64,000 bases of DNA from positions 1 through 64,000 of the forward strand of contig QHVI01000065.1 in NCBI GenBank assembly GCA_003223515.1, given 5' to 3'. This document shows, one piece after another, positions 33,049 to 45,867 of the stretch. Position numbers and translations under genes: made by a program. The notes beneath the pieces were generated by a model. It was given only the letters and a program-made list of their open reading frames with translations. It ran no database searches and was not told where the DNA came from. The stretch is from Candidatus Angelobacter sp. Gp1-AA117 (GTDB lineage: Bacteria; Acidobacteriota; Terriglobia; Terriglobales; Acidobacteriaceae). The number at the start of each line of letters is the position of its first letter. Within the stretch, counting starts at the first letter, position 1.

Positions 33049-34431
33049 TTAATCGTCATCAACGGTACTTCCGAAACTGAAAGCTGTATCGCAGCCGCCG
33101 CTCGGAATTCTCTGGGTAAGTGCCTGATAAAAATCAACGCGTCCTTTGCCCATCAGGGGAACAGGGACTGCACGCGCGAGCGCGTTGGCCACACCGCAGG
33201 CGCTTGCTCCGCTGTTACTCTGCAGGGCCAGAGCCACAGAGCCGGCCACCATCGGCGCACTGAAGGAGGTTCCCCAGCCTGCGGCATAGTTCCCACCAGG
33301 GTAGGTAGTGATTACGCCTTCACCAGGCGCCGCGAAAAGCACGTCAGGACTTCCAAAGTTGCTGAAGGTGCTGGCGACATCGCTATTGGTAGTGGAGCCG
33401 ATCCCGAATACGCGGTTGGCTCCGGCGGGAAATACTGAAGCTCCGGAGCTATCGTTTCCGGCAGAAGCCACCAGAATTACATTCTTGTTCTGCGCATACT
33501 TGATGGCAGCTATCAGCGCATTGGAAGGCTGCCCTACTTCAAAGCTCATGCTGATCACATTGGCTCCGTGATCGGCAGCGTAATAGATGGCTTGAATGAT
33601 GCTGAATACGTCTGACGTGCCATCGGCGTGGAAGGCCTTCAGCGGCATGATCCTGGCTCTGGGTGCTACTAGATGGGCCAAACCTGCGGTCATCGTCCCG
33701 TGTCCGAATGCCTGCGGCAACGTGCCTTCCAGAATGGGGGTAACTGATTGGTCCAGAATTGCCAGCGTGGAATTGTTGACTGGAACGACTGTCTGGCTTT
33801 CCAGAATCGGGGTAACAGATTGAGTCAACCCTGGCTGCAGCGCTGGGGCAAGGTCCGCCAGTTCAGAAGGCACACCTGGCTGGTTGCGAGTGAAATCGAA
33901 GCCAGTCGTGAGAACACTGCTGAGAGCCGGATGTTTGGGATCAACACCCGTATCGATGACTGCAATGGTCAATCCTGACCCGGTCAAACCAGTCGCAAAC
34001 CGCATTTCGTGCAGCCGGACGATCCTGATGGCAGGCTGAATCAAGTAATTGCTGGGTACAATGGAGCCAAAATAAAAAATTGGAAAGCGAGTGGAAAGCG
34101 ATTCGAGAATCGGGGTAACTGACTGCGAAAGCTGGGCAGCAGTGGCGCCTGATAATTCAGGCATAGCTACCGGCTGGTTGGCCTCGAAATTGGCAATCGT
34201 CGGATCACCGTATTCGATAGTGGCTGGATCTACGTTGGTAGGGGAGGAAACGAGATAAACACCGCTGACTCCATTCGTCCAGCCTGTGGCCACAACGGTC
34301 AAGCCATGACGCCCGCAGGTATCCAATACGGTAGAAGGAGATGACGTTGTAAGAACGTAGTTGGTTTGGGCGAAGAGCGGCATGCTTAGCAGCAAAGCCC
34401 CCAACCAAATAGATAAATAATGTAGCCGCAT
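33049..34431 (-). CDS. Secreted S8 (subtilisin-like) serine peptidase with three QSVTPILE(S/G) repeats
   Basis: Signal peptide; catalytic Asp AVIDTGVD, His FGHGTMTAGL, Ser GTSFSAPMVAG; LSQSVTPILES, LTQSVTPILES, LDQSVTPILEG. Confidence 0.92.
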   Translation of the reverse strand: MRLHYLSIWLGALLLSMPLFAQTNYVLTTSSPSTVLDTCGRHGLTVVATGWTNGVSGVYLVSSPTNVDPATIEYGDPTIANFEANQPVAMPELSGATAAQLSQSVTPILESLSTRFPIFYFGSIVPSNYLIQPAIRIVRLHEMRFATGLTGSGLTIAVIDTGVDPKHPALSSVLTTGFDFTRNQPGVPSELADLAPALQPGLTQSVTPILESQTVVPVNNSTLAILDQSVTPILEGTLPQAFGHGTMTAGLAHLVAPRARIMPLKAFHADGTSDVFSIIQAIYYAADHGANVISMSFEVGQPSNALIAAIKYAQNKNVILVASAGNDSSGASVFPAGANRVFGIGSTTNSDVASTFSNFGSPDVLFAAPGEGVITTYPGGNYAAGWGTSFSAPMVAGSVALALQSNSGASACGVANALARAVPVPLMGKGRVDFYQALTQRIPSGGCDTAFSFGSTVDDD

Positions 34432-34510
34432 TGCCTAACCTTCCTCTTCTACTATTAAGGTTCTCTAATAATGCTCGGCAATTGTACTCTAGAAGAGCCG
34501 GAAGTAGAAG

Positions 34511-35152
34511 TTAGTTAATTTCAAGTCCAGTCTGATTTAAAGCCACTTCGAGCTCCTGGCCCTTGGATCCCAGCGGTACGAGCAGATGCAAATCCGATTG
34601 GGGAGTATACTCTAACTGAAACTCTCCAAAGGAGTTACTAAGAGACCTGGTCAATTCCCGGCTTCCGGACAACAGGATGACGGGAAAATGGGCTACCTGC
34701 TCTTCCGGGGTTTGCCGGTTAGCAATCTGCCCTACCATGACCATGCTCGAAGAACCCTTTTCATGCTCGAAACGCAAATCCACTGAATAATCCCCTGCCT
34801 GGAATAGCACATGGCGGCTGATTTGATGCCCCATACGTACTCCAGCGGGCTGAGGATCGTTCAAACTGTCATACATAAGGTTCCCGATAACACGTTTCAA
34901 TAGAGAGACTTGCGGCTGTTTGTGCAGAGCAAAGAAAGCCTTGACCGAACGCTCCACATGCTCAGGAACGTTGTAGGCTTCCTCACGGGCACAAATGACT
35001 GCAAACCTCGTTAATTGATCCACGACCTTCCGACATTTTGTACAGCCTGACTGGAGATGGGCCAGCATCTCGCTGTGCTGTACAGGAGCAACTTGCTCGC
35101 GTACGTAATCTACCCAGTCGGCAATATCGAAATGGCGCACAGTGTTGAACAT
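34511..35152 (-). CDS. zf-HC2-like (putative anti-sigma-type) zinc-finger protein
   Basis: N-terminal AHLQSGCTKCRKVVDQL (H..C..C); C-terminal beta-rich region (YSVDLRFEHEKGSSSMVMVGQI); lies in the same gene train as the ECF sigma gene. Confidence 0.65.
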   Translation of the reverse strand: MFNTVRHFDIADWVDYVREQVAPVQHSEMLAHLQSGCTKCRKVVDQLTRFAVICAREEAYNVPEHVERSVKAFFALHKQPQVSLLKRVIGNLMYDSLNDPQPAGVRMGHQISRHVLFQAGDYSVDLRFEHEKGSSSMVMVGQIANRQTPEEQVAHFPVILLSGSRELTRSLSNSFGEFQLEYTPQSDLHLLVPLGSKGQELEVALNQTGLEIN

Positions 35153-35281
35153 AGAATCCCAATATATGAGGGAGGGTACAGCTTCCGGGTCTGTACCCTC
35201 CCGTTGTAGCAGTCGACGGATGAGCCTGCTGTTCTAGTAGAGTAGAAGTTCATCCGGAAAATATAGCTTTTTTTAAAAATA

Positions 35282-38146
35282 TCACGAGAACTTGCCCACC
35301 AGGGCAAAGGCCCCCCAGAAATATGGATGAGGGCGCTTTTCCCTTAAGTTCAATATTGCCTGACGCAAAGCCATAGCCTTATTGGGCAAATGGCGGTAAG
35401 AGGCATAGAACTCACGCATGAATTCTGCTGTACTTTCGTCATGTACCTCCCACAGGCTTACCATCAGGGTTTGAGCCCCGGCATAGAGGAGGCCGCGCAC
35501 CAGCCCGATCAGCTCGTCTCCGCCGATGACCACGTTCATCCCCGTGCCACAGCCGCTCAGGGTCACCAGTTCAGCCTGCAATTGCAACTGATACAGGTCA
35601 AAAAGGCTGAGCAGGGAATTACCCAGCCGTATGGAAGAAAACATCGGGTTGTCCTGGCGAAAATACCCATGGGTGGCAATGTGAATAAAACGGCTTTGCG
35701 GGCCATAAGCGCGCAATTGCTCTTCGCTGGCCTGATCGCCAATGAAAAGCCGCGCGTTCCCCAGGGCCGCTGCCACATACTCGGCTTCTTCGCGAATGTG
35801 AGGAGCGCGCTGGTCCGGGATGGCCAGCACCAGGGCCTCACTGCTTTTTGCCGCCGGCTTCTCCTGGCACAGGGCAAAGACTCCAGCGCTGGGTGCGTAG
35901 GAGATTGAAAAATCATCGATGAGTGCCCGGTTTCCGCTCAAGAGCGCATGGAATGGCAGGTAATGCAGGAATGAATGGGGCACGATGATGAGATGAGAGG
36001 CATTCAGGTGTTTGCGGATAGGAGCAATCAGCAGCGTGTTCAGACGCTGGAGGTGCGCAGTCGTGGCTTCGAGCAGCATTTTCTCCAGCGGCTTTATGTA
36101 TTCCTCTCCCAGGCGGAACTTGGCGATTTGCAACTGAAGCAAGCGCAGCTCTTCGCGTACTTCAGCCACTTCTGCCACCGGGAAGATATGAACCTGGTCG
36201 TGGGTCACCAAGCAGGCGTAAAACCAGTTGCGCGCCGAGTAATACTCGAGCAGGATGCCGTCTTTGGGCAGCTTCGATTGTAGTTCTGCCACCGAACGCG
36301 TTTCAGCAACCTGCAGTCCGGCGAGTTCCTGGTCCATGCTCTGGAAGCTGGAGAATGCTTTCATCAGGGCATCTTCAAACTGTCGCCCCTGCTTACGCAG
36401 ATTCTGGATGCGGTTTGCAGAACGATCGCCGGGACTGAGTTCCTCCAACTCGATCTGGTGGTACACCCAGTTCAGTTTCTGCCGCAGGTCACGCAATTGC
36501 GCGGTTGCGGCAGAGTTTTCGGCCTTGCGCGATTGCAGTGTCGAGGTGCGGAAAGCGATCAGGTCGGCAAGGCTCTTTGATTTCGCCTGCTCGATATATT
36601 CAAACGCCCTGGAGTTTCTGGTCTTGCCCTTGTCCACTGCCAGTGAAGTGACCACCAGCCCTTCGTATACTGCCAGCTTGTTTTTCAGGAAGGCAATCTT
36701 CAGTTCTTCGCGTCCCAGGCTGCTGCGCAGTCCTTCGAGTTTCTGAAAGGCATTCTCGTAAGCCTGGCGGGCAAGCTCAATGTTGCCGCTGGCCTCCTCT
36801 GCCTGCCCCAGCATGAAATATGCCTGGTACACCGCAGGAGATTCGATGTGCAGTAAACGGGCAAGGGCAGAACTGCAGTAGCGGCGCGCGTTCCCGGTTT
36901 CTCCAAAACGAAGATCAATCGCCGCCAGCAACAACTCGCAGATGGCTGCTTTGGCGGGCAGCGGTGAAGGATCGAAGTAGCGCAGTGCCGAGGATGCCAG
37001 TTCATGAGCCAGATCATCATCGCCGGTCTCATACAGCACCAGCGCCTTGTAGAGATCGATCAGAGTGGGCCACAGATAGTTCTTTTCCTTCACGAACAGC
37101 TCACGCGCTTCATCAAACAGCTTCAGGGAGAGTTCGTGATTGCCCTGCTGGTTCAGAGCAATGCCAAAGAATGCCTTGGCTTTGGCCGCCTCATACTGCA
37201 ATCCAAGTTCCTGGAAACTTATGGCGGCAGAGCGAGCCATCTCCGCGCCGCCTTCGGTCAGGTTCAGTTCAAGATAGATTTCAGACTGGTCGAGATCACA
37301 AAGTGCGCGATGGTACCGGTCATCCAGTTCTTCGCAAAGAGCGCGCGTCTTATCGTAAAGCTCGATGGCGCGCAGGTATTCACCGCGCTGATAGTAGAGA
37401 TACGCAATGTTGTAATCTACCTCGGCCACCAGCCGGGTAAAGCCGTGCTTTTCGGAAAGTTTGCGGGCCTGCTGGTAAGTGCGTTCCGCACGCTCGAATT
37501 CATTCAGGCTGATATAACAAACGGCCAGATTGCGCAGGATGGCGGCCAGGTCTTCGGCGTCTCCGTGCAGCAGGAATTCCTGGTAGGCCCGCTCATACAT
37601 TTGCGCCGCTTCGTGAAAACGGTCCTGCCGGTAAAACATGATGGCCATGTTGGTATCAAGACGGGCCAGACGCAGCTTGTCACCATGTGCGGCAAAGATG
37701 CTGCGCGCCTTCTCACCGAGTTGATGTGCATAGTCATACTGTCCCTGGTACACCAGGCTATGCAGGGCTCCGTTGATGGTGAGTGCAACTTCCAGATCGG
37801 AGCCGAGACGTTCAAAGATTGCAATGGCCCGGTCATATTCCTGTACCGCTTCAGCGTGTTTCCCGGAGTGGAAGAAAACGTGGCCTGTGGCGCGGGCGCT
37901 TCTTGCGGAAGCAAATTCATCATGCAATTGTGAGGTGATCCAGGCGCCTGCTTCGGCCAGGCGTTGCGCGCGTTGCACGTCCACACGGGTCAGCGAGATG
38001 ACCGCGTCATAGATTTTGTCGAAAGCTTCTTTGCTGCAAAGCTGCGGTTGCCCTTTCAGAAAGTGGGAGCGGTCGTCTTTGCCCGGAATCATGGACAACT
38101 CCGTAATCCATGGCTCCAGCTCTTTTGTGTTCACGGCGGGCGACAT
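35282..38146 (-). CDS. TPR-CHAT (caspase-like peptidase domain) protein
   Basis: Multiple TPR-like repeats; C-terminal CHAT with FIHIATHGYF (His) and ELVTLSGCGTGMN (Cys), GLVRGLLYAGAQTLMVSLWEVHDESTAEFMREFY. Confidence 0.92.
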   Translation of the reverse strand: MSPAVNTKELEPWITELSMIPGKDDRSHFLKGQPQLCSKEAFDKIYDAVISLTRVDVQRAQRLAEAGAWITSQLHDEFASARSARATGHVFFHSGKHAEAVQEYDRAIAIFERLGSDLEVALTINGALHSLVYQGQYDYAHQLGEKARSIFAAHGDKLRLARLDTNMAIMFYRQDRFHEAAQMYERAYQEFLLHGDAEDLAAILRNLAVCYISLNEFERAERTYQQARKLSEKHGFTRLVAEVDYNIAYLYYQRGEYLRAIELYDKTRALCEELDDRYHRALCDLDQSEIYLELNLTEGGAEMARSAAISFQELGLQYEAAKAKAFFGIALNQQGNHELSLKLFDEARELFVKEKNYLWPTLIDLYKALVLYETGDDDLAHELASSALRYFDPSPLPAKAAICELLLAAIDLRFGETGNARRYCSSALARLLHIESPAVYQAYFMLGQAEEASGNIELARQAYENAFQKLEGLRSSLGREELKIAFLKNKLAVYEGLVVTSLAVDKGKTRNSRAFEYIEQAKSKSLADLIAFRTSTLQSRKAENSAATAQLRDLRQKLNWVYHQIELEELSPGDRSANRIQNLRKQGRQFEDALMKAFSSFQSMDQELAGLQVAETRSVAELQSKLPKDGILLEYYSARNWFYACLVTHDQVHIFPVAEVAEVREELRLLQLQIAKFRLGEEYIKPLEKMLLEATTAHLQRLNTLLIAPIRKHLNASHLIIVPHSFLHYLPFHALLSGNRALIDDFSISYAPSAGVFALCQEKPAAKSSEALVLAIPDQRAPHIREEAEYVAAALGNARLFIGDQASEEQLRAYGPQSRFIHIATHGYFRQDNPMFSSIRLGNSLLSLFDLYQLQLQAELVTLSGCGTGMNVVIGGDELIGLVRGLLYAGAQTLMVSLWEVHDESTAEFMREFYASYRHLPNKAMALRQAILNLREKRPHPYFWGAFALVGKFS

Positions 38147-38734
38147 TCAGAAACCCAGCTCCGACAGGATTTTCTGCAGGCGGTTCAGGCAGCGGCCGCG
38201 AATGAATCCAATCGAGCCGGTGGCCAGGCCCAGGCGCTTTGCCAGTTCGTTATAAGGAACCGGAGGCTGCTCGAAAAACAGCATCTTCACCAGTTCCGCG
38301 CAACGTGGCGGCAGCAACTGGACTGCATCTCTCACCATCTGCTCCTGCTGTATTTCCTGCAGAGTGTCTGGAGGAGCGGCGGCAATCTCTTCCGCAACTT
38401 CCTGCTCCATGGCATCCAGTTCCACGTCCTGGCGCCGCTTCTTTATGTGAAAACATTTGTGAGTAGCGACGGTGATCAGCCAGGAGCGCAATGATTCAAC
38501 CTTGCGCAGCTTTTGCAGATTGGTAAAGAGATCGACGCATACTGCCTGGAAGACGTCGGCCGCATCCTCAGGGCTCAGCGTGTATTTGACTGGTATGGAA
38601 TAGATCAGACGCTTGTACTTGTCGACGAGCCGGTTCCAGGCCTGCTCATCGCCGCTCAGGCATTCCTGTACCAGCCGCTCATCTTCAGCAGCAATCGGCG
38701 GAGGTGCAAGCGATATGTCCTGTTCTTTTTCCAT
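38147..38734 (-). CDS. ECF-type sigma-70 family RNA polymerase sigma factor
   Basis: WNRLVDKYKRLIYSIPVKYTLSPEDAADVFQAVCVDLFTNLQKLRKVESLRSWLITVATHKC (sigma2), LPPRCAELVKMLFFEQPPVPYNELAKRLGLATGSIGFIRGRCLNRLQKIL (sigma4). Confidence 0.9.
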   Translation of the reverse strand: MEKEQDISLAPPPIAAEDERLVQECLSGDEQAWNRLVDKYKRLIYSIPVKYTLSPEDAADVFQAVCVDLFTNLQKLRKVESLRSWLITVATHKCFHIKKRRQDVELDAMEQEVAEEIAAAPPDTLQEIQQEQMVRDAVQLLPPRCAELVKMLFFEQPPVPYNELAKRLGLATGSIGFIRGRCLNRLQKILSELGF

Positions 38735-40470
38735 TACTTATTTTTAGCCGGAGTGCGCCAGAACAACTCCTCCACATTCCAAAGAGTGTAATGCTCGAGG
38801 ATGGCGGGCTGAAAGTTACCGAGGTCGTCCTTCGCTGCGACCAAGATGTGAGGGCTGGCCAGTGAGATAAAAGGCAACTGCTGGGCAATGATCTCCTGCA
38901 CGCGGTCATACAGCTTCTTGCGCGCGGGATAAGACAAAGTCACCAACTGCTTTTGCATGAGCTGGTCGATTTCCGCCTGCCATGGAGTAGAGGGTTTGTT
39001 CTCCCCCGAATGCCACACATGCGTCGGCCCATCTGACGCCAGTAAACCAATGTCGGGGTTCGGATCTGCATCGCTTCCACCGAATCCCATCAAGGCCGCT
39101 TCAAAATCATGGCTGTTGAGTACCCGGGCGATCAACGACCCGGAGTTCATTGGCACCACATTCACTTTCATGCCCAGTTGTTTCAGGTCATCCTGCACCA
39201 GGGTGGCCATCTCTACACGCTGTGGATTGCTGGAACTCACCACGATGCTGAATTCCACGGACTGGCCGCCAGTATCCTGCAGGCTGCCATCCGGCTTCCA
39301 GGTAAACCCCGCGTCTTTCAGGTACCGGCGCGCCTGGGCAACATCATGTGGCGGAACAGGAACGGAATAGTTGATCCACTCGTTATTTGCGGGAGTTACA
39401 TGAGTGGCCAGGGGAGCGCCGCGCCCACGATAAACCAGCCGCACGATTCCCCCGCGGTCCACGGCGAAAGATACTGCCCGGCGGAAGCGCACGTCATTGA
39501 ACCATTGCTGTTTGCGGTTGATTGCGGGAAGCTGGCCCTGCGCATCGCTGTTCAAGTTGAAGAACAGGATGTTGTACTCGAGCCCCGGCCCCACATCGAT
39601 GAGCTTGTAACCGTGCGATTGCTGATCTTTCGAGAGCGCAGCAAAATTCTCTCCACTCAGCGTGTTCAGCACCTGCGTGTCTCCGGCCTGAAAGCGGATC
39701 ACCTGGGCGTCTTGTGTAGGAACGGCGAGAAAGGTTAACTCATCGAGATAAGGAAGCTGTTGTCTCCTGGAATCAATCTTCCAGTAATAAGGATTACGTT
39801 CAAGAATGATGCTCGATCCCGGAACAATTTTCTTTACCCTGAAAGGACCCAGCCCAGCCACCTTTTCAGGTGGTGTATTGAGCGTCCATGCCTGCTGCAG
39901 CGTGCCTGCCGCGTAATCCGTTTCCAGAAGATGCCGGGGCAGGATGGCGATGCTGTCGAAAAATCTGTCTCCAACGGCATATGGAGCAGGAAAGGTGAAG
40001 CGCACGGTGAAGTTGTCGAGCTTTTCTACCGAAACCGGTTTTCCGGAGATCGTCAGCAGGTCGCGCTGGGGCGCCCCTACCTTTTCATCGAGGTAAACCT
40101 TGCAGGTGAACATTACATCGTTGGCATCAAAGGGGATACCGTCAGAGAAGCGGAGCCCCTGGCGCAGCTTCAACGTGAACTGCTTTCCATCTCGGGATGC
40201 AGTCCATGACTTCGCCAGGGCGGGCTCAGGTTTCAGGGTAGAGCGATTGATATGAATAAGGTCTGCTGCCGTCCGCCAGATAACGGCCCGCGAGTTCTGG
40301 TCGATGGCGGTGATCGGGTTCAGGGTCTTTGGTTCGGCTGCCAGAGCGATGGCAAGATGCCCGCCCCGTTGCCCCGGTTCAGCCGTGGAATGCATGTAGT
40401 CCTGCGCTGGTAGCAGGACCGGAACGGTCGCGGCGATAAGGATCAGGCAGGTTCTCCGAAAGCTGTTCAT
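38734..40470 (-). CDS. Peptide ABC transporter substrate-binding protein (SBP_bac_5)
   Basis: Signal peptide; EPKTLNPITAIDQNS, WTASRDGKQFTLKLRQGLRFSDGIPFDANDVMFTCKVY, FRRAVSFAVDRGGIVRLVYRG. Confidence 0.92.
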   Translation of the reverse strand: MNSFRRTCLILIAATVPVLLPAQDYMHSTAEPGQRGGHLAIALAAEPKTLNPITAIDQNSRAVIWRTAADLIHINRSTLKPEPALAKSWTASRDGKQFTLKLRQGLRFSDGIPFDANDVMFTCKVYLDEKVGAPQRDLLTISGKPVSVEKLDNFTVRFTFPAPYAVGDRFFDSIAILPRHLLETDYAAGTLQQAWTLNTPPEKVAGLGPFRVKKIVPGSSIILERNPYYWKIDSRRQQLPYLDELTFLAVPTQDAQVIRFQAGDTQVLNTLSGENFAALSKDQQSHGYKLIDVGPGLEYNILFFNLNSDAQGQLPAINRKQQWFNDVRFRRAVSFAVDRGGIVRLVYRGRGAPLATHVTPANNEWINYSVPVPPHDVAQARRYLKDAGFTWKPDGSLQDTGGQSVEFSIVVSSSNPQRVEMATLVQDDLKQLGMKVNVVPMNSGSLIARVLNSHDFEAALMGFGGSDADPNPDIGLLASDGPTHVWHSGENKPSTPWQAEIDQLMQKQLVTLSYPARKKLYDRVQEIIAQQLPFISLASPHILVAAKDDLGNFQPAILEHYTLWNVEELFWRTPAKNK

Positions 40471-40556
40471 TTTACAATTTCTTTACAACTGGGCCAGCGG
40501 GCCCATGCCCCAGCCAAACTTCATTAGGCAATGAGTCTGAATTGCTTGTGAAAGTT

Positions 40557-41585
40557 TCAATTGTACCGGAGATGAAGATTATCTAATAATTGATGGTAGG
40601 CAAGGAAGACCGGAATCAGGATCAACCCCGGAACCAGCATCCACCACCGCGCCGTAAGTAATAGATGTTGTTGGGCATAGGCGAGCATGTTGCCCCAACT
40701 GGGTACCGGCTCCCCGATGCCTAAACCGAGAAACGACAGAACTACTTCAGCCAGAATAAAGAGGGGGACGAGCAGGGCAATCTGCGTCAGGATCACCCCG
40801 ACGGCCGACGGAAATATATGTCGCCGTAAGACATATACGCCAGACGCGCCAAACCCCTGCGCCGCCAGCACGAAGTTGCGCTCCCTGGCGCTTAACACGA
40901 CGCCGCGTACCAGCCTTGCCGGACGGCCCCAACCCACCAGGCCAATTACCCCGACTACCAGGAAAAAGGCCGTAGCCGGCTCGATCTGTAGGGGCAGGAA
41001 GGCGCGGATGGCCAGCAGCAGGTAAAACCAAGGGACAGCGATGAAGATTTCCGCCAGCCGCATGATGACATCATCTACCACCTTGCCGTAGTAGCCGGCG
41101 ATCCCGCCCATCAATAAACCTGCTGCTCCTGATAGTAGAGCCGCAAATAGACCTGCAAAGAGTGAGACACGGCCTCCATACAAAGTTCGCGAAAACTGGT
41201 CACGGCCAAAGCCATCTGCTCCGAAGAGATAGATACGCGCCGGTTCGTCTGCGCCGAAAAGATGGATGGTGGCATCGGTCATTCCCAGTAAGCTGTAACG
41301 GTCTCCCCGGACGAAGAGCCGCACGGGAAACATTGCCGACTGGTCTTCTTTATATTCGGTGGAATTCTCAATGTCGCTAACGGATTTGTAGATGAATGGC
41401 CGCCAGTGAAACTTGCCGCCGGCATCGATGAAATGAATTCGGGCCGGGGGAGCAAAAGGTTGATAACGATCCTGCGCATCATAGCTGTACGGCGCAAAGA
41501 ACCCGGCAAACACCACCAGCAAGTGGAGTCCCATCAAAAACCAGATCGCCAATGCAGCGCCTTTAGCTTTCATAATCCTGGTCAA
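40557..41585 (-). CDS. Oligopeptide/dipeptide ABC transporter permease (OppC/DppC type)
   Basis: Six TM pattern; FGADGFGRDQFSRTLYGGRVSLFAGLFAALLSG and EAA-like ERNFVLAAQGFGASGVYVLRRHIFP. Confidence 0.9.
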   Translation of the reverse strand: MTRIMKAKGAALAIWFLMGLHLLVVFAGFFAPYSYDAQDRYQPFAPPARIHFIDAGGKFHWRPFIYKSVSDIENSTEYKEDQSAMFPVRLFVRGDRYSLLGMTDATIHLFGADEPARIYLFGADGFGRDQFSRTLYGGRVSLFAGLFAALLSGAAGLLMGGIAGYYGKVVDDVIMRLAEIFIAVPWFYLLLAIRAFLPLQIEPATAFFLVVGVIGLVGWGRPARLVRGVVLSARERNFVLAAQGFGASGVYVLRRHIFPSAVGVILTQIALLVPLFILAEVVLSFLGLGIGEPVPSWGNMLAYAQQHLLLTARWWMLVPGLILIPVFLAYHQLLDNLHLRYN

Positions 41586-41960
41586 ACGATTTGGAATTCA
41601 CCGCAGAGAACGCAGTATAGCGAAACCACAACCAAAACTTTTTACCACAGCGTGGCGAGCCACAACCAAACGGCTTTAACCGCAGAGAACGCAGAGAGCG
41701 CAGAGGAAGGCAAAAGTAGTTTATGTGTATTTGATCTGGCACTGTTTTTGTTCCCTCAAGATTTTCGGTACGCCAAAGCTGGACTTGGAAGAGGTAAAGC
41801 AGCATGAAAATTCTTCGCAGGAATACAAGAATTTTGGATATAGCAATGCGGAGGGCGCAGAGGACGCAGAGGGAACAAATTCTTTTTACTCGCGTTCCGC
41901 AAACTCTCTTCAATCTTTCTCTGCGTTCTCTGCGCCCTCTGCGGTAAAGATTCGGAAAAC
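41570..41960. repeat. Dispersed CGCAGAGR-type repeat block inserted between permease genes
   Basis: CCACAGCGTGGCGAGCCACAACCAAACGGCTTTAACCGCAGAGAACGCAGAGAGCGCAGAGGAA plus inverted TTTCTCTGCGTTCTCTGCGCCCTCTGCGGTAAAG; near-identical sequence recurs at 60811-60872. Confidence 0.85.
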
Positions 41961-42929
41961 TCATTCCTGCACCCGAATGCGCGGATCGACCGCATAGAGC
42001 AGCAAATCGGCAAACAGATTTCCCACTCCCATCAACAGAATCGACAGCATCGTCGCGCCGATCACCACAAAAAGATCATGGCTGAGAATCGCTTCCACCA
42101 GCAGTGGTCCCATGCCCGGCCAGCTCATCACCACCTCTACCAGTAAAGAAACACTGAGCAAGGCTGCCACGGACAGCCCCAATAAAGTAATGAGCGGATT
42201 GGCGGCTGCCGGAAGCGCGTAACGATAGAGCAGGTCGAACCGGGAAAGTCCGTGGCCTTCAGCGGCCTTCAAATAAGAGGAGTCAAGCACTTCAACCATG
42301 CTGGCGCGCACGTGGCGGATGATTGTAGGCATAGAGCCCAGGACCAGCACGGTCACCGGCAGAACCATGTGCCAGGCCGTATCCACAAGGGTCGCCCACC
42401 AGCCCGAATCAGCGGCGTCATGAGAATTCATTCCACCCACCGGGAAGGCATGAGTACGCAACGCAAATACCAGCACCAGCAGCGCCAGCAGCAGATCGGG
42501 GATTGCCAGCAGCGTGGACGTTCCCGCCGAAAACGCGCGGTCAATCCAGCTACCTTTTCGTGACGCTGCCAATACTCCCAGCGGCAAGGCGATGATCCAC
42601 GATAGAAAGAGCGCTGGCACTGTCAGCAGCAGGGTGTGGAGCATCCTCGGCCAGAGCAGAGAAGAGGCGGGCACGTCATAAACAAAGGAGTAGCCCAGAT
42701 TTCCACGAACAACGGAGCTGATCCACTTCCAATATCTGGTGGGCAGCGGCTGGTCGAGTCCATATTGAGCGCGCATGGCCTGCAGCGTTTCCGGAGAAAT
42801 CTGCGGGTTCAGGCGTGCTTCGCTGAGCACGTCTCCGGGAGCCGCTGCCGATAGCAGAAACATCAGGATGGAAACGCCCAGCAACATGAGCGCGATATTG
42901 CCGGCGCGGCGCAGCAGATAGCGGATCAC
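41961..42929 (-). CDS. Oligopeptide/dipeptide ABC transporter permease (OppB/DppB type)
   Basis: MIRYLLRRAGNIALMLLGVSILMFLL; RYWKWISSVVRGNLGYSF; SSYLKAAEGHGLSRFDLLYRYALPAA. Confidence 0.92.
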   Translation of the reverse strand: MIRYLLRRAGNIALMLLGVSILMFLLSAAAPGDVLSEARLNPQISPETLQAMRAQYGLDQPLPTRYWKWISSVVRGNLGYSFVYDVPASSLLWPRMLHTLLLTVPALFLSWIIALPLGVLAASRKGSWIDRAFSAGTSTLLAIPDLLLALLVLVFALRTHAFPVGGMNSHDAADSGWWATLVDTAWHMVLPVTVLVLGSMPTIIRHVRASMVEVLDSSYLKAAEGHGLSRFDLLYRYALPAAANPLITLLGLSVAALLSVSLLVEVVMSWPGMGPLLVEAILSHDLFVVIGATMLSILLMGVGNLFADLLLYAVDPRIRVQE

Positions 42930-44536
42930 CGTGCCACCTCGATGCCCGACACATGCAGCCGCCGGCTCGCCTCCAGCAAAGCGCGCGTTTCCGGCTCTGC
43001 GCTTTGCTGCAACAGTAACGGAGTAGAGCTCTCCACGATGCGGCCCTGCTGCATGACCATGATCTTATGCGCAAAGAGCGAAACGAAGTTCAGGTCATGC
43101 GAGATATACAGGTAAGTGAGGCGATGCCGCGTCTGCAATTCCAGCAGCATGCGCACGATTTGTGCCTGCAAAGGAATGTCGAGGCCTGAAAGCGCTTCAT
43201 CAAGGATGAGCAACCGCGGCTGGAGCACCAGCGCGCGGGCAATCGCCAGTCTCTGCCGCTGGCCGCCGCTGAACTGTGTTACCGGACGTCCGCTTGAATC
43301 GGGATCAAGGCCGGTTTCTTTCATCGCATTCAGCACTCGCTCCCGCGTTTCTGAAGCTGTGCCCCAGTGATTGATTTTCAGCGGCTCGGCAATCGCCTGC
43401 TCGGCCGTAAAGCGCGGATTCAACGCGGTGGTGGCATCCTGAAAAAGTAATTGGATTTGCTGGCGTGATCTCTTGGTCAATGTGTGAATGGGCATGCTAT
43501 CAAGAAGAATCTCTCCCGAATCAGGTGATTCAAATCCGGCAATGCAGCGGGCCAGCGTAGATTTTCCGGAGCCTGATCGCCCTACCAGCGCAATTATCGA
43601 TTGTTCATACAGGGCTAAGTCCACGTCTTGCAGGGCATTCACAGTTGCTTTCTGTGAGAAGAAGCGTTTGCGGCGGTAATGTTTGCTGACATGCTGGATT
43701 TCCAGCAGTGGCTTTGGCGTTTCCACGGCGCCGGGATTGGTCAGAGCCAGGGGCACGATGCGCGCCGGAGAGATAAGCTGCTGTACGTAAGAGTCAGATG
43801 TTTGCTGCAACTCATCGAAACGTCCGCTGGCGGCGATTTGTCCACGCTGCATGACTGCAATCCGGTCAGCAAACGAAGCCAGCACCCCGGCATTGTGCGT
43901 AATAAAGAGGATAGAGAGATTCAATTCGCTCTTGAGTCTTTGCAGCAGCGCCAGCACTTCTGCCTGGGTCACCGTATCGAGCGAACTGAGTGGTTCATCG
44001 GCAATCAGAAGCTTCGGGCGGCATACCAGTGCCTGGGCAATGGCAACACGTTGACGCTGGCCTCCGCTGATCTGGCTGGGATACGCTTGTGCGATTTTCT
44101 CCGGCTCATCAAAACCCACCTGGCGCAGCATGGAATGGGTCTTCTCCACTGTGTCAGCTTTGCTGAATGTTCCGTGGGCTTTGAGAACATCCCTGATCTG
44201 CACGCCCACTGGCAAAACCGGATTCAGCGCCAGCGCCGGCTCCTGAAACACCAGCGAGATCTCAGCGCCGCGTAGCTTCCGCAATTCAGCACTCTGGAGT
44301 TTCAGCAGGTTGCGGCTTTCAAAGATCGCTTCACCGGAAATATTCCTGGTATTTGCGGGCAGCAGCCGCAACAGCGCCAGCGCCAGCGAACTTTTCCCGG
44401 AGCCGGACTCCCCCAGAATGCCCACGGTTTCCCCGGCATTGATCTCGAGATTGAGGTCGCGCAGCGCAGGAACAACGGTCCCGTTGCCCGCCAGATAATC
44501 CACACTCAACCCCGCAACCTGCAGCAGTGGCTTCAT
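42926..44536 (-). CDS. Dual-ATPase peptide ABC transporter ATP-binding protein (DppD-DppF fusion type)
   Basis: Two Walker A (GESGSGKSSLAL, GRSGSGKSTLAR) and two signature motifs (ISGGQRQRVAIAQAL, FSGGQRQRLAIARAL). Confidence 0.95.
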   Translation of the reverse strand: MKPLLQVAGLSVDYLAGNGTVVPALRDLNLEINAGETVGILGESGSGKSSLALALLRLLPANTRNISGEAIFESRNLLKLQSAELRKLRGAEISLVFQEPALALNPVLPVGVQIRDVLKAHGTFSKADTVEKTHSMLRQVGFDEPEKIAQAYPSQISGGQRQRVAIAQALVCRPKLLIADEPLSSLDTVTQAEVLALLQRLKSELNLSILFITHNAGVLASFADRIAVMQRGQIAASGRFDELQQTSDSYVQQLISPARIVPLALTNPGAVETPKPLLEIQHVSKHYRRKRFFSQKATVNALQDVDLALYEQSIIALVGRSGSGKSTLARCIAGFESPDSGEILLDSMPIHTLTKRSRQQIQLLFQDATTALNPRFTAEQAIAEPLKINHWGTASETRERVLNAMKETGLDPDSSGRPVTQFSGGQRQRLAIARALVLQPRLLILDEALSGLDIPLQAQIVRMLLELQTRHRLTYLYISHDLNFVSLFAHKIMVMQQGRIVESSTPLLLQQSAEPETRALLEASRRLHVSGIEVAR

Positions 44537-44994: not shown

Positions 44995-45867
44995 GTGTTC
45001 CGCCACTGGCCGAAACTCAGGTTCGTTCTTGGGGGGGTGATCTTGCGGCATCGGGATTTCACAGCGGCTATCTCTCTACTTCTGCTTCTTGCAGCATTAG
45101 CCTTGGCAGGATGCGGTGGCAGCACAACTCCTGCACAGAGCGCTCAGACCGTAAAGCCTCCAAGTGGAACAGGAGGAAGCGGGGGGACTGGAGGAAATGT
45201 CCCAGCCGGCGCTACCGTGATTGACAACGTTGAGGACACGCCCAACTGGCTCACCTGCGGGGCTTGCGGCAATGATGGGGCTACTGGAGCCATCGCTCCG
45301 CATTCGATATCAATAGGCGTGCCGTCGCCCAGTGAAGATGGCCGGGCCACGCAGTTTTCCATAGCCGCTACCGTGCCCTTTACAAACATTTACTGGTACC
45401 AGCAGCACACCCCGGTGCGCGACCAACTCAGCTTCCTGATGTATGAATTCGATCTTTATATTCCCGTGGGTTCGGAAAATGCACCCCAGGCAATTGAGTT
45501 TGAGTGCCAGCAGATTCTGAATGGATGGGTCTACAACTACAGTTGGCAGGCGATCTACACGATGAACCTGTGGCGCATCTTTAATTATGGCGCCAAGCAG
45601 TGGGAGTCAGCCAATGTTTCCTTTCAGCATTTCACTCCGGGAACCTGGCACCACATGGTGGCCGAGTATCACAATGACGTGACCACGCATTCTGTTTTTC
45701 ACGATGCGCTAACCGTGGATGGCACCCGTTATCCGCTCAACATCCGTCATGACGCATTCTTCTCAGGCTCCAATGACCAGTTCACCAACGCGATCCAACT
45801 CGACAGCAACCTCCACCCCGATCCTTACAGCATCATGGTGGACAAGATGAAGATCACGTATAAATAA
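44995..45867 (+). CDS. Hypothetical lipoprotein with a lectin/polysaccharide-lyase-like fold region
   Basis: Lipobox-like LALAGCGG, Gly-rich linker, then WLTCGACGNDG...; GTG start at 44995 or a later start. Confidence 0.6.
   Translation: MFRHWPKLRFVLGGVILRHRDFTAAISLLLLLAALALAGCGGSTTPAQSAQTVKPPSGTGGSGGTGGNVPAGATVIDNVEDTPNWLTCGACGNDGATGAIAPHSISIGVPSPSEDGRATQFSIAATVPFTNIYWYQQHTPVRDQLSFLMYEFDLYIPVGSENAPQAIEFECQQILNGWVYNYSWQAIYTMNLWRIFNYGAKQWESANVSFQHFTPGTWHHMVAEYHNDVTTHSVFHDALTVDGTRYPLNIRHDAFFSGSNDQFTNAIQLDSNLHPDPYSIMVDKMKITYK

Follow-up and report, generated by a model that had tools for sequence, protein, structure and literature searches.

What function could bring a peptide ABC importer, an extracytoplasmic function (ECF) sigma factor, a caspase-like CHAT protein, a zinc-finger (ZnF) protein and a secreted subtilase together in one train of eight genes on the same strand? 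The question is raised by a locus of Candidatus Angelobacter sp. Gp1-AA117, located within a stretch of 64,000 nucleotides (contig QHVI01000065.1, positions 1 to 64,000; hereafter the window), part of contig C57 in a genome of 6.48 Mb (G000), the relatives of which are Acidobacteriota. A previous reading of the window, based on the sequence only, proposed that the subtilase makes peptides, that the Opp-type system imports them and that the CHAT protein and the sigma factor respond. This proposal fits the data described below, and the linkage of these genes recurs in other genomes, importer included. It can be sharpened: the peptide is most likely a repeated octapeptide, private to each module and contained in the subtilase sequence, and the TPR half of the CHAT protein is the most likely receptor. 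We assign a probability of about 0.7 to the reading in which the module is a peptide-pheromone system, sensing kin or density, in which the subtilase is the precursor, the Opp system imports the peptide, the TPR region receives it and CHAT proteolysis frees the ECF sigma factor.

A private octapeptide and the region that tracks it

The pro-subtilase (peptidase family S8) carries the octapeptide QSVTPILE three times, once in the linker between prodomain and catalytic domain and twice in the insert between the catalytic Asp and His, a repeat overlooked by the sequence-only reading. The closest solved structure identified by Foldseek is pro-subtilisin E (3whi). The AlphaFold2 model has a mean confidence (pLDDT) of 86 and, besides the C-terminal end, the segments below 50 are residues 102-105 and 207-230, which overlap octapeptide copies; the copies are thus predicted to sit in disordered loops of an otherwise confident model. 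Among homologous S8 proteins, 34 distinct octapeptides were found in 82 proteins, with 2 to 16 copies each (among them QSTAGILD, QSTAGILE, QSTTSILD, QSTSTVLE, QSTVAVLD, QRTVAVLD, QSTAAVLD, QHTAAMLD and QETTPILD), and all 82 have a signal-peptide-like N-terminus by a crude test. The repeat register is eight residues, and tandem copies mostly follow each other without spacer.

Copies are 98% identical, against 47% for the four flanking residues on each side. At the nucleotide level, same-residue codons of copies within one protein differ 89% as often as independent draws from the codon usage of the gene, 18 of 95 serine positions have both TCN and AGY codons in the copies of a single protein, and codon pairs over the 82 proteins show 3077 synonymous versus 112 non-synonymous differences, the latter count being lowered because copies were picked by similarity. 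As the codons are near-independent while the motif is far better conserved than its flanks, recent duplication, slippage or gene conversion is ruled out, and the copies are old and held alike at the amino-acid level. The octapeptide is confined genome-wide to these S8 genes, stray partial matches aside, which rules out a general cytoplasmic or genome-wide motif; in the genome of the window, the two extra matches are SSVTPILD in two related 440-residue proteins. These sequences show a private, homogeneous octapeptide under selection at the amino-acid level.

A comparison that does not depend on how copies were picked is provided by six congeners, each with two tandem S8 genes that are 51-58% identical. 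Within a genome the two genes together hold 7 or 8 copies, all of the same octapeptide, which differs from one genome to the next. In a tree built with the octapeptides masked, the second paralogues and the window gene form one clade (99/98), and the duplication of S8 therefore predates the genus. More generally, S8 pairs within one module share the octapeptide exactly (9/9 pairs, paralogues 47-68% identical), and in one genome (G042) twenty copies lie in two S8 genes on separate contigs and none elsewhere, the CHAT gene being on a third contig. Genomes with two modules keep them distinct: L115 has QSTVSLLN by one CHAT gene and QSTVAFLD (two S8 genes) by the other, G304 has QRSLAFID and QRSQAFID, and the hexapeptide-type pairs are GRSWSI/GGSWSI in G328 and GGSWSI/GHSWAI in G322. 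This pattern is the one that would be expected of a ligand that several precursors supply and a single cognate receptor recognises. With regard to other repeats, S8 genes beside CHAT in family f29 (L241-L244, L254) contain a repeat of six residues in two copies (GRSWSI, GGSWSI, GHSWAI, GRSWAV) in place of the octapeptide, and a subtilase at L096:9241-10797, with no CHAT neighbour in view, has five copies of another repeat (LDGGETILP).

To identify the protein that reads the octapeptide, octapeptide distance was compared with the distance of eight protein regions over 40 modules and 22 octapeptides, overall divergence being controlled; the null consisted of pseudo-motifs of matched variability taken from other module proteins, with phylogeny preserved. 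Residues 41-300 of the TPR-CHAT protein track the octapeptide (partial r 0.50-0.53), a value reached by matched pseudo-motifs in 0.07% and 0.2% of draws (P 0.0007 and 0.002, the latter staying near 0.016 once corrected for eight regions) and by 0 of 1103 contiguous 8-mers elsewhere. With the same null, no tracking was observed for the helical region 301-600 (P 0.73), the ZnF protein (P 0.90), the sigma factor (P 0.93) or the CHAT domain (P 0.95). A rate artefact is ruled out, as faster windows (401-500) give negative values and matched pseudo-motifs rarely reach the TPR value. Within the TPR units the signal is carried by the A helices (0.098 versus 0.028 in the B helices; P 0.017), and A helices line the concave groove in which TPR proteins bind peptides. 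Weak profile matches of the region to the Rgg C-terminus (E 0.002) and to AimR (E 0.007) were obtained, which TPR similarity alone could give. The co-variation argues for a strong link between peptide and TPR region, and the TPR half of TPR-CHAT is most likely the receptor.

Conservation of the module

Scanning 84,980 species genomes with a CHAT alignment yielded 80 loci, nearly all from Acidobacteriota. Among the loci with enough flank around the homologous CHAT gene, the neighbours include SBP (the substrate-binding protein) in 63/70, ZnF in 64/69, S8 in 55/63 and sigma in 59/78, and for the importer genes OppC in 50/61, OppB in 43/52 and OppDF in 36/46. The eight-gene train is far beyond chance, and it is a conserved module of Acidobacteriota. 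The co-occurrence of S8, CHAT and ECF genes that the sequence-only reading had proposed to look for elsewhere recurs across the phylum, importer included, and that they never co-occur is excluded. The block OppDF-OppB-OppC-SBP-sigma-TPR/CHAT-ZnF-S8(-S8) was found again in six congeners, one of them interrupted at a contig end, and in diverged form in a further genome (G008). In a draw of 297 Acidobacteriota genomes, TPR-CHAT proteins of this kind were present in 25, representing a dozen families, and the gene order can be sigma-ZnF-CHAT-S8.

In 31 of 54 loci an HD-GYP-type gene (PF13487), absent from the window, lies directly 3' of S8, which suggests cyclic di-GMP turnover as an output in those lineages; examples are L138:15124-15816, L077:11498-12154, L086:11655-12347 and L089:10979-11680, among others. 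In G018 (L079/L118 7780-9246), a sigma-54-type response regulator lies between CHAT and ZnF, and the S8 protein there has 16 octapeptide copies. One locus (L182) is labelled Betaproteobacteria, but its module is Acidobacteriota-like and the genome bin may be mislabelled. Plasmid carriage was rejected, plasmid matches being partial CHAT or catalytic-domain matches only.

A predicted signalling circuit and its rivals

From the linkage, the octapeptide and its co-variation with the TPR region we infer the following steps. The exported pro-subtilase would be both protease and precursor, with private octapeptide copies in its disordered linker and Asp-His insert, and the octapeptide would be released outside the cytoplasmic membrane, either at subtilase maturation or by self-cleavage of the subtilase. 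The linked SBP-OppBCDF importer would take it into the cell, where it would bind in the groove on the concave face of the TPR superhelix at the N-terminus and switch on the CHAT protease. Activated CHAT would then cleave the HxCxC (ZnF) protein, a putative soluble anti-sigma factor, and free the ECF sigma factor. Likely outputs are the co-promoted small RNAs described below, the ZnF-S8 genes, which would provide positive feedback, and the HD-GYP gene in many relatives.

The last steps are modelled on Craspase, the type III-E CASP system (Csx29, Csx30, CASP-sigma), in which Csx29 cleaves Csx30, an inhibitor of an ECF sigma factor (PMC10028731). The TPR-CHAT protein is 954 residues long (AlphaFold2 model pLDDT 85) and its best Foldseek matches are Csx29 (E 3.3e-17) and separase, with a score of 59 for a cut-off of 300 against the NCBIfam Csx29 model. 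The His and Cys residues that the sequence-only reading saw in CHAT are borne out, H826 and C866 being invariant in an alignment of 64 homologues. Both systems have a TPR-CHAT protein with a His/Cys dyad beside an ECF sigma factor and a candidate inhibitor; as TPR-CHAT folds like Csx29, the octapeptide could by analogy be the trigger in place of target RNA, and the HxCxC protein the inhibitor cleaved to release the sigma factor. However, Craspase comprises Cas7-11, Csx30, Csx31 and a crRNA, none of which is present here (Cas7-11 and Csx30 were not seen among the open reading frames), and its trigger is the target RNA whereas here it is presumed to be a peptide. In the HxCxC protein, H32-x4-C37-x2-C40 is conserved in 65 homologues, as compared with H-x3-C-x2-C in zinc-binding anti-sigma factors (zf-HC2/ZAS); no Pfam match was obtained, and no zf-HC2 match even at E 5.

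Several points weigh against the pheromone system. No peptide has been detected, the route of an octapeptide across an outer membrane is left unexplained, and the HxCxC protein matches no anti-sigma factor in the databases. In more distant families of the 297-genome draw, the importer is often non-adjacent. Co-variation of the SBP with the octapeptide does not exceed the null (P 0.34), although a generic importer need not show any, and a role of the SBP as specificity filter is unsupported. Finally, weak tracking of the octapeptide is seen for the S8 prodomain (P 0.046).

This last observation, together with a P value of 0.09 for the S8 catalytic domain and the location of copies between prodomain and catalytic domain and in the Asp-His insert, could also be accounted for if the octapeptides were cleavage or pseudo-substrate sites for subtilase maturation, matched to the enzyme's own specificity, the released pieces carrying no message and the neighbouring genes regulating protease secretion. 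We consider this unlikely: tracking of the octapeptide is far closer for the TPR region, which is cytoplasmic, than for the S8 catalytic domain, general proteases rarely need eight fixed residues, and neither the importer nor the use of one octapeptide per module is explained. An equally doubtful possibility is that TPR-CHAT detects octapeptides on subtilase precursor stuck in the cytoplasm and triggers an ECF sigma secretion-stress response, without any import. The co-variation with the TPR region would then be accounted for, and families with a non-adjacent importer would be well suited, but the SBP and Opp genes are strongly linked in nearer lineages, and an export-failure sensor gives no reason for the octapeptide to diversify or for one genome to hold two differing modules. 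It is highly improbable that identical repeats stack in an amyloid- or solenoid-like manner, copies matching one another rather than a receptor: although the repeats are short, tandem, hydrophobic in their cores and up to 16 in number, they end in an acidic residue or Asn, they lie in low-confidence loops of the S8 model, and the TPR co-variation would be unexplained. Least probable of all is a conflict or defence module with CHAT as suicide protease and the subtilase as effector. CHAT and S8 proteins do occur in defence loci, but CHAT and ZnF have no PADLOC match, for which the defence reading was set aside, and S8 matches only a generic subtilase model and, weakly, IetS. Moreover, the genes form a conserved block on the chromosome that includes an importer, and the S8 protein is predicted to be exported.

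Compared with the RRNPP systems of Bacillota (Rap, Rgg, NprR, PrgX, PlcR, AimR), the pheromone system would share a short secreted peptide, an importer and a cytosolic TPR receptor encoded near the precursor, all of these being predicted here. By the published criteria (PMC10075063), an RRNPP propeptide is small and dedicated (10-100 residues) and lies beside its receptor, a regulator of 250-500 residues; here the precursor is a 460-residue subtilase, with 2-16 copies among homologues, one gene away from a 954-residue protein with a CHAT protease domain. The ECF sigma output, the phylum and the linked importer genes also differ from RRNPP. These criteria place the module outside RRNPP, although it appears to operate in a similar way; the same source places oligopeptide signals in Bacillota (PMC10075063). 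For the Acidobacteriota module, the multicopy secreted precursor has a further parallel in yeast. Precursors of the yeast alpha-factor type hold a peptide in multiple copies within a single secreted protein, whereas here the precursor is itself a protease.

The ECF54 neighbourhood is reportedly due to Casas-Pastor 2021 and Huang 2015. According to a review, genes for CHAT, subtilase and carboxypeptidase-domain proteins are neighbours of those for ECF54 sigma factors, for which proteolytic control has been proposed; the model member is actinobacterial, and the review passage mentions neither octapeptide nor importer (PMC8999054). The gene neighbourhood of the window, on which the comparison is based, agrees with this description as far as the passage gives it. 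The CHAT/subtilase/ECF neighbourhood is thus already published, and no report of the octapeptide was found in the sources covered: a full-text search with six of the octapeptides returned no paper, and searches on CHAT-linked or acidobacterial peptide signalling returned nothing relevant. We know of no description of peptide signalling in Acidobacteriota, which are among the commonest soil bacteria, and the parts from which imported-peptide signalling would be built here are, to our knowledge, not known to serve in it. Together, the importer, the caspase-like receptor, the gene switch and the protease-borne peptide look like an undescribed system of bacterial chemical communication.

If so, Acidobacteriota would gain a genetically encoded, species-private signal, with 34 predicted ligands and their matched receptors listed; CHAT/ECF/subtilase neighbourhoods would gain a trigger, and caspase-like proteases would act as pheromone receptors. 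Such ligands, being short and linear, can be synthesised, which makes the claim open to direct test. We regard as somewhat better than an even bet the broader proposal of a phylum-wide peptide language, in which each module has its own octapeptide (a hexapeptide in one family), carried in several copies in an active subtilase and read by a TPR-CHAT proteolytic receptor, with several insulated channels per genome, a small-RNA output and no part homologous to known quorum-sensing parts.

Small-RNA-like element and layout of the locus

The interval between CHAT and ZnF contains the promoter-like sequence TATATTT-N-GACTCTACT and, after it, an RNA of two hairpins with a covarying stem, the two invariant loops of which (CTCATCCGTCGA and ACCCGGAAG) can pair (UCCG/CGGA). 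Stand-alone copies have terminator-like T-runs. Five copies of promoter and RNA are present in all in the genome of the window, at window positions 35170-35265 (-), at G000:C45:19896-20311 (three in tandem) and at G000:C82:10536-10577, and the promoter pattern in this genome has four matches, all four at these RNAs. Two to four copies were found in each of G001-G004, G006 and G007 and none in G005, G008, G018 or G034; G005 also yielded no homologue of the module's ZnF or S8 protein. The family was found only in genomes of the window's genus that have the module. As promoter, RNA and module co-occur, the module sigma factor probably reads this promoter, and the small-RNA family is likely an output of the module. 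The element has no Rfam match; a known riboswitch or small RNA as CHAT-ZnF leader was rejected accordingly, the three matches at E<1 being plant and animal microRNA models on a palindromic repeat.

All eight open reading frames claimed on the minus strand are present (Table 1), and the junctions read as proposed: OppDF and OppB overlap by 4 bp, the SBP stop overlaps the sigma start (TAATG) and the TPR-CHAT ATG directly follows the sigma TGA. The spacing of 79 bp between ZnF and S8 also stands, whereas the CHAT-ZnF gap is 129 bp, not 130. The D/H/S triad noted in S8 was confirmed, D160, H244 and S389 being invariant in an alignment of 50 homologues.

Table 1. Positions of the module genes and elements in the window.
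Feature	Position	Strand	Assignment and remarks
OppDF	42926..44536	-	Fused dual ATPase of a peptide/nickel-type (family 5) ABC importer; Pfam ABC_tran x2 and NCBIfam
OppB-type permease	41961..42929	-	Pfam BPD_transp_1
OppC-type permease	40557..41585	-	Pfam BPD_transp_1
SBP	38734..40470	-	Family 5 peptide-type substrate-binding protein; SBP_bac_5 4.9e-84
ECF sigma factor	38147..38734	-	Regions 2 and 4; TIGR02937 9.8e-23; Pfam Sigma70_r2
TPR-CHAT	35282..38146	-	Caspase-like protease by family; Pfam CHAT 1.5e-62 and TPR; dyad H826/C866
Candidate TPR sensor region (TPR-CHAT residues 41-300)	37247..38026	-	Divergence tracks the octapeptide
Promoter-like element TATATTTT-N-ACTCTACT	35236..35265	-	Common to stand-alone small-RNA copies elsewhere in the genome
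Small-RNA-like element	35170..35232	-	Two hairpins, invariant loops CTCATCCGTCGA and ACCCGGAAG, covarying second stem
HxCxC (zf-HC2-like) ZnF protein	34511..35152	-	C-terminal beta domain; candidate anti-sigma factor and putative CHAT substrate
Pro-subtilase S8	33049..34431	-	Predicted secreted; Peptidase_S8 3.8e-36; predicted signal peptide, I9-like prodomain, intact triad
Octapeptide copy 1, QSVTPILE (S8 residues 103-110)	34102..34125	-	Linker from prodomain to catalytic domain
Octapeptide copy 2, QSVTPILE (S8 residues 204-211)	33799..33822	-	Insert between catalytic Asp and His
Octapeptide copy 3, QSVTPILE (S8 residues 228-235)	33727..33750	-	Asp-His insert, as copy 2

The gap between OppB and OppC is 375 bp long and contains an inverted repeat; because of this gap and of the promoter and small-RNA-like element between CHAT and ZnF, the train need not be one transcript. 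The repeat (window 41841-41950) is an imperfect palindrome (GCGCAGAGGACGCAGAGG...) resembling a miniature inverted-repeat transposable element, and gives the false plant and animal microRNA matches in Rfam. On the other side of OppDF, at window 44995-45867 (+), lies a divergent lipoprotein-like gene with no Pfam match, which also accompanies the module in G006 (L073) and in L110.

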